Part shown: positions 308 through 62,017 of the stretch, piece after piece
Layout of the letters: each line of letters begins with the position of its first letter
Position numbering within the stretch: position 1 is the stretch's first letter
Assembly (NCBI RefSeq): GCF_000169435.1
Contig: NZ_AAYB01000002.1
Span: forward strand, 496,001 to 560,000
Source: Roseobacter sp. CCS2
GTDB lineage: Bacteria > Pseudomonadota > Alphaproteobacteria > Rhodobacterales > Rhodobacteraceae
Length of the DNA stretch: 64,000 bases
Reading direction: 5' to 3'
Program-made: the position numbers and the translations under genes
The notes under the pieces: model-generated
Told to the model about the DNA's origin: nothing
Database searches by the model: none
What the model saw: only the letters and a program-made list of their open reading frames with translations

Positions 308-742
308 ATGTCAAAAAGAGCGATTATGTCAGACATAGCAACACAGCGCAGTACGAATTGGTTGGCTGGAGCAGGGCTTCGTCCGACACGGCAACGCATG
401 ACATTGGCGTCATTGCTTGTTGGTGATGGACAGGATCGGCATGTGACGGCAGAGAGCCTGTTTGCGGCGGCGTCCAATGCGGATGAAAAAGTGTCGTTGG
501 CAACCGTCTATAACACGCTGCGCGCCTTTTGCGATGCAGGTCTGATGCGCGAGATTACTGTGGACGGATCGAAGAGCTACTTTGACACGAATATGACCGA
601 TCACCCCCATTTTTACTGGGAAGACACAGCAAAGCTGACTGATGCGCCTGCGGACCAGTTGGAAATTTGTAATTTGCCCGATGCGCCCGAAGGGGCAGAA
701 ATTGCATCGGTGGATGTGGTTATCAGGTTGCGACGGACCTGA
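308..742 (+). CDS. irr: Fur-family iron response regulator Irr
   Basis: A 144-residue Fur-superfamily repressor. The N-terminal winged helix (about residues 17-85, including GLRPTRQRM and VSLATVYNTLRAF) is followed by a short dimerisation/metal domain. Irr controls haem and iron genes in alphaproteobacteria and is destabilised by haem in rhizobia. Here the segment that is HHH in Bradyrhizobium/Rhizobium Irr reads DHPHFYWED, so one histidine is replaced by proline. An alternative ATG at 326 (MSDIATQRS) has a better purine-rich stretch ahead of it and may be the true start. The divergent position to fabA matches other Rhodobacterales. No convincing ICE-box was found in the 133 bp between irr and fabA. 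Confidence 0.9.
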   Translation: MSKRAIMSDIATQRSTNWLAGAGLRPTRQRMTLASLLVGDGQDRHVTAESLFAAASNADEKVSLATVYNTLRAFCDAGLMREITVDGSKSYFDTNMTDHPHFYWEDTAKLTDAPADQLEICNLPDAPEGAEIASVDVVIRLRRT

Positions 743-822: not shown

Positions 823-1353
823 ATGTCCAATTATCGCCGTCTTCGCGTGCCCGGTGGCACCTACTTTTTCACTGTGCGTTTGCAGGATCAGCGCTCTGAT
901 TTGTTGATCTCTCATGTTGATCTGTTGCGCGATGCGACGCGGCTTTGCAAGAAACGCTGGCCTTTTGCAATTGATGCTGCGGTCATACTTCCCAGTAAAT
1001 TGCATATGATCTGGACCTTGCCTGAAGGTGACGATGACTTTTCAAAGCGGTGGCGGATGATCAAATCAAGCTTTTCGCGCCACGCCCCCGCACCGCATCA
1101 CATTCCTGAAAGCCATCGCAGACGTGGTGAAAAAGGCATTTGGCAACGCAGGTTTTGGGAACATCTGATCCGGGATAATGATGATCTGGCGCTGCATATG
1201 CATTTGATCCGATCTGCGCCTATTCACGAGGGTCTTGTGAAAAAGCCCAGCGATTGGCCTTATTGTTCACTGCATCACACGTCGCGCAGGCTTAAAACCA
1301 CTGCCCCGGCTCCATCAGGCCCAGGTCCATCAATTGCTGCGATTGCCAGCTGA
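823..1353 (+). CDS. REP-associated tyrosine transposase-like protein (RAYT), catalytically degenerate
   Basis: A 176-residue protein of the IS200/Y1-transposase RAYT family. Its family hallmarks are YRRLRVPGGTYFFTVRLQ at the N-terminus, the WTLPEGDDDFSKRW block, GIWQRRFWEHLIRD and DWPYCSLHH near the C-terminus. RAYTs are single-strand nucleases that recognise REP hairpins. Two catalytic signatures appear lost: the HUH motif reads K59-L60-H61 (SKLHMIW), and the helix that normally reads YIHxNPVKHGLV reads LIRSAPIHEGLV, so the expected catalytic Tyr is Leu128. The 3' end overlaps the convergent neighbour by 62 nt, so the last 20 or so residues may not belong to the ancestral protein. It is probably a decaying or repurposed DNA-binding protein. 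Confidence 0.8.
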   Translation: MSNYRRLRVPGGTYFFTVRLQDQRSDLLISHVDLLRDATRLCKKRWPFAIDAAVILPSKLHMIWTLPEGDDDFSKRWRMIKSSFSRHAPAPHHIPESHRRRGEKGIWQRRFWEHLIRDNDDLALHMHLIRSAPIHEGLVKKPSDWPYCSLHHTSRRLKTTAPAPSGPGPSIAAIAS

Positions 1354-2155
1354 ACTGCGCCGACTGTGGCCAGTGGAAGGTATTGATTACGGCGCGACTG
1401 CCCGGGTTACGCCGCAGCGCCTTGGCCGTGCGAAACGAACAAATCGCCGCTGACAGGTTGTTATGCCACGGACAGGAATATGTGTTGTATTCGGCCAGAT
1501 TGAATGACCGATCGGCCAACATCTGCAATCCCGGCTGTGCCCGGAAAAATGAAATGCGATCAGTGCGTTGGCGCGCCTTTGGAATATGTTCTTCGAAACG
1601 CCACCGCAGGCCGCCAAAGATATTGATCTGCCGGTCCAGCGTTTCGCCTGCTGCATCTTCGCGGGCCAAAGCATAGTAGCCTGACTTGTCAAAATATGCG
1701 CTGTCGCGATCTACACCGTTGGCATGCACGGTAAGGTCTTTTGCGTAAAGATCGACGATATAGCTCATGACCGTGTCGCGCCGTTCTTCGCGCATGAAGG
1801 TCAGCATCTCACCTACGCTGCGGTGTTCGCAAAACGGATAGAGCAGGTATTCGGCGTTGTAGCAATAATAGAGCCATTGGTCCGGCAGCGCCTTGATCAT
1901 CGCATTGGCGATTGTCTGCAATGCATCTTCGGCGCTGACATCAAAGTCGACGCGATGCAGCTTGTCTGGTACCTCTGCGGGAAGGGCGTGTTCAGGGGCA
2001 CAAAAGGCTATCAAATGCGCGAAACCTGCATTCGCGTGATGGGTGATGGTGCTTGCGACCTCTACATCGTCTTCGATCAGGATCAGTGCCACCGGCCCGT
2101 CGGGCAGGGTGCGTCGGGCGTCATTGGCCAAGGCTGCAAGTGATGGATAGTGCAT
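1292..2155 (-). CDS. Glycosyltransferase-like protein, function unknown
   Basis: A 287-residue soluble protein starting at ATG 2155 ([17 protein letters not shown]). Upstream in-frame codons lack family-like sequence, so the longer reading was not used. The N-terminal part ([18 protein letters not shown] ... HLIAFCAPE) and the central [22 protein letters not shown] and [13 protein letters not shown] blocks resemble the GT2/GT92-like putative glycosyltransferases common in Rhodobacteraceae. I cannot see a clear DxD motif, so activity is uncertain. The gene overlaps the transposase-like gene tail-to-tail and lies back-to-back with miaB. Confidence 0.6.
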
Positions 2156-2268
2156 GTGGTCTCGCGTCGCGGGGGAACCGGTGCAAAATCGGCGATATCT
2201 GGCCGCATTGCAAGCGTTCCGCCAAATCGCTAGAAGGCGCAGGTTGCCCCAATCCAAGAGCTTGCCCC

Positions 2269-3576
2269 ATGTCCGCGCCCAAGAAGCTTTATATCAAGAC
2301 CTATGGCTGTCAGATGAACGTCTATGACAGCGAACGCATGGCCGAGGCGCTGGGCGGCAAAGGTTATGTCGAAACGCAGACGCCTGACGACGCGGATATG
2401 ATTCTGCTGAACACCTGCCATATTCGCGAAAAAGCGGCAGAGAAGGTGTATTCTGAGCTGGGCCGTTTCAAGAGATTGAAAGCTGAGAACCCTGATCTGA
2501 AAATTGGCGTTGCAGGATGTGTCGCTCAGGCTGAGGGTGAGGAAATCATCAAACGCCAGCCGATGGTGGATTTGGTGGTTGGCCCCCAAAGCTATCACCG
2601 ATTGCCTGCGATGGATGATGCCATTCAGACGGGTGCGAAAGCGCTCGACACTGATTTTCCAGATGATGACAAGTTTGAAACGCTCAAAACACGGACCAAA
2701 GCCAAGCGTGGCCCGACGGCATTTTTGACGGTGCAGGAAGGCTGCGATAAATTCTGCGCTTTCTGTGTGGTGCCATATACGCGCGGCGCCGAAGTATCGC
2801 GCCCCGCTGATCGCATCATCCGTGAGGCGCAGGAATTGGTCGAAAGTGGCGTGAAGGAAATCACGCTATTGGGCCAGAACGTGAATGCCTATCATGGGCA
2901 TGCGGGTGGTTTGGCCGGGCTGATCTGGGCCTTGGACAAGGTTGATGGGTTAGAGCGTATTCGTTTTACCACATCCCATCCCAACGATATGGACGATGCG
3001 CTGATTGAAGCGCACGGACGCTGCGATAAGCTGATGCCCTATCTGCATTTGCCAGTGCAGTCCGGATCCGACCGTATTCTCAAGGCGATGAACCGCAAAC
3101 ATACGGGCGAAAGCTATGTGCGTTTGATCGCGCGCATTCGTCAGGCGCGTCCTGATTTGCTGCTGTCCGGTGATTTTATTGTGGGCTTCCCCGGTGAGAC
3201 GGATCAGGATTTTGAAGACACCATGCAGTTGGTACGCGACGTGCACTATGGGCAGGCCTATTCGTTTAAATATTCAACCCGCCCGGGCACGCCAGCGGCG
3301 GAAAAGCCACAACTGCCCGAGGACGTGATGAACGACAGGTTGCAGCGCTTGCAGGCACTTCTTCGTGAACAGCAACAAGCGACACAGGCCGCAATGGTGG
3401 GCCGCGAAGTGAAGGTGTTGTTTGAAAAAGCGGGACGCGAACCGGGGCAGATGATCGGCAAGTCTGAGTATCTGCATGCGGTTTATGCGGATGCCCCGGC
3501 TGATGTGATTGGGCAGGTGCGGCGCGTAAAGGTTGTGCAGGACAGTCCAAATTCATTACGAGGTGCGTTGATGTAA
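2269..3576 (+). CDS. miaB: tRNA-2-methylthio-N6-dimethylallyladenosine synthase
   Basis: A 435-residue methylthiotransferase that adds the methylthio group to i6A37 of tRNAs reading UNN codons. The start ATG at 2269 gives [17 protein letters not shown]. The N-terminal UPF0004 domain carries three cluster cysteines ([21 protein letters not shown]). The radical-SAM motif [15 protein letters not shown] follows at about residues 155-170, and a TRAM domain ends the protein. It heads the run of RNA-maturation and envelope genes up to trmB. Its TAA stop lies inside a REP palindrome. Confidence 0.97.
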
Positions 3577-3598
3577 GGTGGATCGTGATCCACCTTAC
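3573..3598. repeat. REP-like palindrome, copy 2 (straddles the miaB stop codon)
   Basis: Two perfect 12 bp arms, GTAAGGTGGATC and GATCCACCTTAC, separated by GT. The TAA stop of miaB (3574-3576) is part of the left arm, so insertion or homogenisation of the element rebuilt the end of the gene. The remaining 120 bp before phoH show no clear promoter. Confidence 0.88.
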
Positions 3599-61991: not shown

Positions 61992-62017
61992 GTAAGGTGG
62001 ATCATGATCCACCTTAC
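61992..62017. repeat. REP-like palindrome, copy 4 (perfect 26 bp)
   Basis: A perfect palindrome of half-site GTAAGGTGGATCA, identical in both arms. It begins 2 nt after the mttB stop codon. Sequence 62018-62240 between it and the CAP gene holds no supported gene. Confidence 0.9.

Follow-up and report, generated by a model that had tools for sequence, protein, structure and literature searches.

The closest described relative of the protein considered here is E. coli TnpAREP, a REP-associated tyrosine transposase (RAYT) represented by the structure 4er8. In the accessible part of PMC3733652, the HUH motif and the catalytic tyrosine are conserved in all RAYTs aligned; excerpts of PMC6006769 and PMC8266576 identify Asn119 of TnpAREP as the third metal ligand and name Gln95 and Arg104 as contacts to GTAG, respectively. 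Domesticated RAYTs are described, in the portion of PMC8049555 available, as a class of single-copy, vertically inherited genes that still replicate REPINs at very low rates, and the role of RAYTs in their hosts is there called unknown. A RAYT survey, as excerpted, excluded sequences that lacked HuH or Y, regarding them as probably non-functional, and kept 722 of 924 (PMC6006769). The IS200/IS605 TnpA proteins of IS608 and ISDra2 are mobile-element transposases.

The window (the whole stretch of Roseobacter sp. CCS2 DNA that was analysed, 64,000 nucleotides) contains a RAYT gene in which key residues for cutting DNA have been lost. The features referred to below are as follows.

308 to 742, plus strand: irr, a Fur-family iron response regulator (NF045677/NF045678; synteny), the upstream neighbour, kept across genera
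747 to 772, no strand: the REP palindrome of the gene itself, GTATGGTGGATCATGATCCACCTTAC, in the irr-RAYT intergenic stretch
823 to 1353, plus strand: predicted catalytically dead RAYT (TnpAREP-type Y1 protein), 176 aa, ATG to TGA (ORF, NF047646, 4er8 alignment, AlphaFold2 model)
832 to 840, plus strand: Tyr4-Arg5-Arg6, an N-terminal motif whose loss tends to accompany loss of the REP palindrome
997 to 1005, plus strand: Lys59-Leu60-His61 where His-u-His is expected (alignment)
1201 to 1218, plus strand: His127-Leu128-Ile129...Ala132, with Leu at the catalytic Tyr position and Ala at the metal-ligand Asn position (alignment)
1292 to 2257, minus strand: convergent glycosyltransferase-like ORF, its 3' end overlapping the RAYT tail by ~60 bp (PF13704, slightly below cutoff)
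2269 to 3576, plus strand: miaB, the downstream neighbour, kept (TIGR01574, 503 bits against a cutoff of 355; synteny)
3573 to 3598, no strand: REP palindrome containing the miaB stop codon, at a site common to the relatives G003 and G044
61992 to 62017, no strand: REP palindrome whose flanks match a G003 site; the mapped position is ~90 bp off, so it was excluded from the shared sites

The reading frame at 823 to 1353 is intact, as the initial annotation had it. Its product matches the NCBIfam model NF047646 (REP-associated tyrosine transposase) at 7.3e-52 (175 bits, cutoff 80); it also matches the 4er8 TnpAREP chain at 1e-37, with a gapless alignment to residue 85. A Pfam profile search gave zero hits for the protein, and Pfam Y1_Tnp (PF01797) had no match across the window genome in a search that was positive in 5 of 14 control genomes. 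The AlphaFold2 model (mean pLDDT 84.8, pTM 0.76; low confidence at residues 1-3 and in the tail from ~153) has a predicted Y1 fold, for which a structure search gave 4er8 as the top PDB match (E 7.4e-18, TM 0.73/0.78); the IS200/IS605 TnpA proteins, unlike this one in being transposases of mobile elements, were weaker fold matches (TMq 0.41-0.48) with low identity, 11-14%. The protein thus resembles TnpAREP in predicted fold, collinear sequence, the Y-x-R and WQ..FWEH motifs, residues aligned to the GTAG contacts, a gene placed beside a REP, and a genomic REP family, and differs from it in lacking the first HUH histidine, the catalytic tyrosine, and the metal-ligand asparagine. Judged from its sequence, it is a RAYT by descent and not a working transposase.

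In the 4er8 alignment, Lys59-Leu60-His61 falls on H-M-H and Leu128 on the tyrosine (chain position ~115), where the initial annotation had put them. Its statement that both catalytic motifs are lost holds for the first HUH histidine and the tyrosine, but the second HUH histidine, His61, is retained. Ala132 occupies the position of TnpAREP Asn119, the Asn of Y---NP. A misplacement of the HUH or the tyrosine, either of which might have lain elsewhere in the protein, was ruled out by this alignment and by those with canonical RAYTs.

The same replacements run through the genus. Our genus set comprised 56 genomes of the marine genus Yoonia, many of them entries still named Loktanella, and a search found RAYT matches in 54. 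One class, the dead type, is present as one copy per genome (L001-L050, plus two damaged copies, split in G054 and truncated in G029) and is 53-89% identical to the window protein; a second class, mostly ~40-52% identical, retains both HUH and Tyr in each of the 17 members examined (L051-L066, L069). Position 128 is Leu or Val, and never tyrosine, in all 50 orthologues L001-L050 (the truncated locus L068, tabulated with them, has no position 128). The first HUH histidine is missing in 49 of the 50, the sole carrier being L041, whose frame ends early, and His61 is kept in 46 and replaced in four (Q, Q, Q, E). Along the helix that held the tyrosine, His127 is present in 50/50, Ile129 in 49/50, and Ala132 in 50/50, whereas position 132 is Asn in 16 of the 17 canonical relatives. 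As aligned, the active-site helix is uniformly remodelled, not eroded. Internal stops, splits, or truncations are absent from 48 of 52 dead-type hits; the damaged copies have one internal stop each in G011 and G030, are split in G054 and truncated in G029, and G053 is altered inside. His127 (1201-1203), beside the lost tyrosine, is absent from the common residues of canonical RAYTs and is also present in L145, from another genus. Two canonical RAYTs, L066 and L069, carry ~20 extra residues between their HUH and Tyr halves.

Gene order is also kept: irr, RAYT, the convergent glycosyltransferase-like gene, and miaB. irr lies upstream at 50/50 genus loci and the other two neighbours are present at 49/50, L034 lying near a contig end. 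At 20 of the 50 loci, ~0.8 kb of other DNA separates irr from the RAYT gene (L017, L018, L020-L022, L025-L029, L031, L032, L035-L037, L044, L047-L050). One copy per genome at a conserved locus is also the habit of the domesticated RAYT class; this lineage differs from that class in having no residues for replication, and in one pair of genomes described below its REPs hardly differ in position.

The palindromes reported by the initial annotation do persist. In the window there are three exact 18-bp cores, GGTGGATC-NN-GATCCACC, at 751, 3577, and 61996, where 0.01 would be expected with up to 2 mismatches; the window genome has 27 exact cores and 37 with up to 2 mismatches, against 0 for a reversed-pattern control. 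The full REP is a palindrome of up to 26 bp, in the window genome GTAAGGTGGATCATGATCCACCTTAC; its GTAA...TTAC ends are reached at 20 of the 27 exact sites by manual reading, and 24 of the 27 have GTAA, GTAG, or GTAT on both ends, a near-symmetry that sets these REPs apart from those of E. coli TnpAREP. Most genus genomes hold ~5 to 58 exact copies. The first type (GGTGGATC) occurs in 33 of the 56 and a second, GATGGGT-NNNN-ACCCATC, in 23; few have both.

REPs are commonly reported beside genes. Here, 22 of the 27 exact window-genome sites are no more than 20 bp from the 3' end of a gene, with gene ends taken from our own ORF calling, and core genes with a REP after the stop include rpoA, a DNA polymerase III alpha gene, murD, pckA, ispG, and aroC. 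Among the 19 different REP-marked proteins profiled, no one pathway was prominent: MurD, PEP carboxykinase, IspG, and fructose-6-phosphate aldolase had model matches above cutoff; RpoA, chorismate synthase, ketol-acid reductoisomerase, GcrA, and a MoaA-like protein were recognized by Pfam domain; and the DNA polymerase III alpha subunit, a partial ORF, matched below cutoff. At 6 of the 27 sites the stop codon ends where the REP core begins, within the outer palindrome bases (L234, L235, L240, L243, L246, L256).

We think it probable that the window protein is an anciently domesticated, cleavage-dead RAYT that has kept its fold and the residues aligned to REP contacts and that acts as a stoichiometric binder of its cognate REPs. 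The tyrosine and the third metal ligand would have been lost first and the first HUH histidine afterwards, with retention of the fold and of the residues that correspond by alignment to the ones holding the REP hairpin and its GTAR tag. Gln108 and Arg117, which align to TnpAREP Gln95 and Arg104, are kept in 49/50 and 47/50 genus orthologues. The protein would then hold its cognate REPs without cutting them, as extruded DNA, single-stranded DNA, or a 3'-end RNA hairpin; the copy at its own gene could serve autoregulation, and elsewhere a local effect at gene ends would follow, on termination, mRNA end stability, or supercoiling. The initial annotation's second suggestion, a domesticated REP-binding protein, is supported indirectly by the contact residues, by a match between own-site and genomic REP type, and by REPs that keep their positions where the search gave no intact RAYT; the binding we infer. 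The main difficulty is posed by six genomes that keep the gene and lack both REP types, where the protein must do something else or bind sites other than those two types. As a more speculative extension, possible though we would not expect it, the protein would be a cleavage-free, transposase-derived REP reader, a genome-wide 3'-end factor for co-evolving palindromes after core-gene stops, possibly as RNA hairpins, and selection for binding, not transposition, would keep both.

Those six genomes (G002, G007, G023, G028, G040, G045), which have an open dead RAYT and neither REP type, speak for an exaptation unrelated to REPs, in which the protein would bind a protein partner or single-stranded nucleic acid in general and the palindromes would be kept as 3'-end hairpins. 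We consider this unlikely. The orthologues in such genomes are under selection (dN/dS 0.03 for L049-L050, one pair from them), so some function must be independent of these REPs; the REPs of the window genome stand at gene ends, where hairpins could act alone; and G016, a fragmented assembly of 440 contigs, shows 11 REPs without any RAYT hit. (G054 combines 9 REPs with its split dead RAYT.) Against this, the palindrome stays beside the RAYT gene in 13 of the 20 genomes with the ~0.8-kb irr spacer. The type found at the gene and the type found genome-wide also change together: the own-site type is the dominant one in 20/20 genomes with the GGTGGATC type and 12/12 with the GATGGGT type, in REP counts that include the own site, and these 32 matches are not independent, since both were inherited by descent in related species. 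Of the remaining 19 tabulated genomes, 5 have a variant own palindrome and 14 have none under strict patterns; REP counts are at least 5 in six of the 14 and below 5 in the other eight. A near-palindrome with one mismatch is present in some of the 14; G006 and G051 bear none yet have 6 REPs each.

The own-site stems covary. Among 36 distinct own-site sequences (43 loci, four of them outside the genus set), 104 of 108 free pairs are Watson-Crick, against a mean of ~56 and a maximum of 71 in 1000 shuffles; the extraction pattern fixed five of eight core pairs, so that free pairs are those at positions 2, 6, and 8 and the 180 imposed pairs were subtracted. The N-terminal motif tends to go with the palindrome as well. 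Y-x-R and a palindrome scoring at least 8 agree in 64 of 70 dead loci (both present in 45, both absent in 19), the discordant loci being three with a palindrome and no Y-x-R and three with the reverse; the same score was reached in 4 of 210 shuffled flanks. Motif and palindrome each change 13 times over a tree of these 70 loci, and the link is not significant when corrected for the tree, with 7 independent well-supported pairs (on average 4.4 agreeing, 0.5 disagreeing, and 2.1 without difference; median p 0.22). Co-loss of motif and palindrome is suggested by these counts. The idea that the palindrome exists only as an irr terminator was ruled out, since in the 13 spacer genomes it stays at the RAYT gene. 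In 44 of 50 dead loci the sequence TTAAC, which we take to resemble a CtrA half-site, is found no more than 45 nt before the start (window stretch 780-822), and canonical RAYTs often carry a similar GTTAACCAT upstream.

That the protein still cuts and joins DNA by relocated chemistry (using, for example, His61, His125, or His127), with REPs still spreading, is in our view very improbable. The conservation of His127 and His61 and of His125 (48/50) would suit it. In the AlphaFold2 model, however, His125 and His127 are placed on the helix that follows the fourth strand, off the HUH strand, and His61 is itself lost in four orthologues. The REPs are, moreover, nearly static where the dead RAYT is the only one. 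In one pair of species of this kind, G024 and G015, 26 of 33 G024 sites are shared in position, 6 have no orthologous stretch, and 1 is absent at a rearranged place; of the 30 G015 sites, conversely, 26 are shared and 4 have no coverage. Sharing is therefore 26 of 27 comparable sites, and all 26 cores are exact, where by our own arithmetic an unconstrained 16-base core would be exact ~22% of the time at the ~91% identity of the stretches. Two pairs of G024 REPs lie 40 bp apart, REPIN-like (C1:155656/155696 and C4:198378/198418).

When relatives were compared with the window genome (G000), a palindrome with up to 2 mismatches stood at the matching place for 16 of 22 G003 sites examined, 7 of 9 from G025, and 6 of 8 from G044, the last two comparisons covering part of their sites. 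In 12 aligned pairs between G000 and G003, identity is 96% over the 26-bp site and 62% over the 30-bp flanks; the sites were chosen for exact cores, leaving 10 outer and central positions free in each, and 11 of these 120 free positions differ against 38% in the flanks. Of 23 sites fetched from G010, which has the second type, a handful of places are shared with G000 or G003, and at several of these the other palindrome type stands in the identical spot. Comparison of empty sites gave mixed results. At the site after aroC, G000, G003, and G046 carry a REP (that of G003 with a different stem), and G032, G025, and G044 carry none; one G003 REP is cleanly absent from G000 and G025, with different DNA there in three other relatives. 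REPs are therefore not wholly static, a point in favor of relocated chemistry, but G003 carries a second RAYT-like hit, so the case is no proof of movement by the dead protein.

Such second hits, present in many genomes, are the basis for a further reading, that another, canonical RAYT maintains the REPs and the dead one is a bystander. The canonical genes examined have their catalytic residues, and three of them (L053, L060, L062) adjoin a palindrome with GATGGGT-type arms and a longer loop. We nevertheless give this reading very little credence. In 17 genomes with at least 5 REPs (G004, G005, G010, G011, G013, G015, G019, G024, G029, G030, G032, G033, G034, G035, G039, G050, G051; the dead gene of G029 being the truncated one), the RAYT search, which may miss very diverged members, matched nothing but the dead RAYT, and these genomes, together with the window genome, hold 6-49 REPs. 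Beyond the gene at 823-1353, the count of intact RAYTs in the window genome, as proposed by the initial annotation, came to zero in our RAYT search, which found one broken relic, L070. As read by eye, the 120 bp upstream of each of the 17 canonical genes contains neither REP type in exact form. L070 is a canonical-type relic in two frames, ~241 kb downstream of the dead RAYT and outside the window. G017 carries a canonical RAYT and lacks the dead type, and its REPs number 1 of the first type and 0 of the second.

A recently inactivated transposase decaying as a pseudogene, the first suggestion of the initial annotation, would account for the changed catalytic positions and the few damaged members but is refuted by the orthologues and has next to nothing left in its favor, for the tyrosine loss is common to the whole genus and to syntenic orthologues in other genera, and the core has evolved under constraint. 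We calculated dN/dS pairwise by the Nei-Gojobori method with our own script, the core being the first 155 alignment columns. The core median was 0.09 (40 closest orthologue pairs), whole-length values ran from 0.03 to 0.40 across the 25 closest pairs, and the median over all 243 pairs with dS < 1.2 was 0.23; five canonical RAYT pairs with dS < 1 gave 0.06 to 0.24. By this measure the core of the dead RAYT is under purifying selection. The tail median of 2.7 (25 pairs) is no evidence of positive selection, since in most loci the convergent glycosyltransferase-like gene runs into the tail with its 3' end. Conservation within that ~60-bp overlap (window 1292-1353), present in most genus loci, may belong to the opposite strand.

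This conservation argues that a clade of RAYTs without HuH and Y is functional, and the HuH/Y-less sequences set aside in PMC6006769 are possibly proteins of the same sort. Excluding RAYTs without HUH or Tyr as non-functional can thus discard a conserved clade. NF047646, the model by which NCBI names RAYTs, draws no line between dead and canonical members: it recognises 52/52 members of set A2, which includes both, at E up to 0.001. Persistence of RAYTs is usually discussed alongside slow copying of REPs, and a long-lived lineage without cutting residues amounts to a natural separation-of-function experiment; should the dead RAYT both bind REPs and be of importance to the cell, its benefit would come from binding, not from moving DNA. 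Domestication of RAYTs is already known, and a conserved lineage lacking the cutting residues is new in the literature searched, mostly without subscription papers, which held no account of one; searches for dead RAYTs, or for REPs in this bacterial group, surfaced none.

The lineage extends beyond the genus set. Tyr-less RAYTs from outside the 56 genomes occupy the same irr/miaB slot, with all three neighbours present at L101, L102, L103, L105, L113, L128, L141, and L167; at L106 irr is adjacent and the glycosyltransferase-like gene 2.6 kb away, and L209, L213, L216, and L218 show irr and the glycosyltransferase-like gene within short stretches. L101 and L106, from unclassified records, fall inside the genus in trees; L102 (Marivivens) and L113 (Nereida) are from other genera. 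Dead RAYTs also occur elsewhere than in this slot (L132, L144-L146, L148, L161, L171). A family-wide search gave hits in 83 of 248 genomes, from which, with further searches, 89 loci were examined (L141-L229: 29 plus 60), most of the remaining hits being short or split. After masking of the catalytic columns and removal of partial and short rows, a tree of 135 rows, among them 25 of the 50 genus loci, contains a 44-row group without any canonical member, in which 40 lack both motifs and 4 keep the HUH without the tyrosine; its SH-aLRT is 93, in a quick, midpoint-rooted tree with several long branches. On the simplest reading of these four (L102, L103, L105, L113), the tyrosine would have been lost before the first HUH histidine. 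RAYTs that keep the HUH and have lost the tyrosine are also found outside the 44-row group (L138, L149, L153, L160, L170, L180, L191, L197, L199, L204, L206, L208, L214, L215); since they scatter over the family tree, tyrosine loss may have been repeated.
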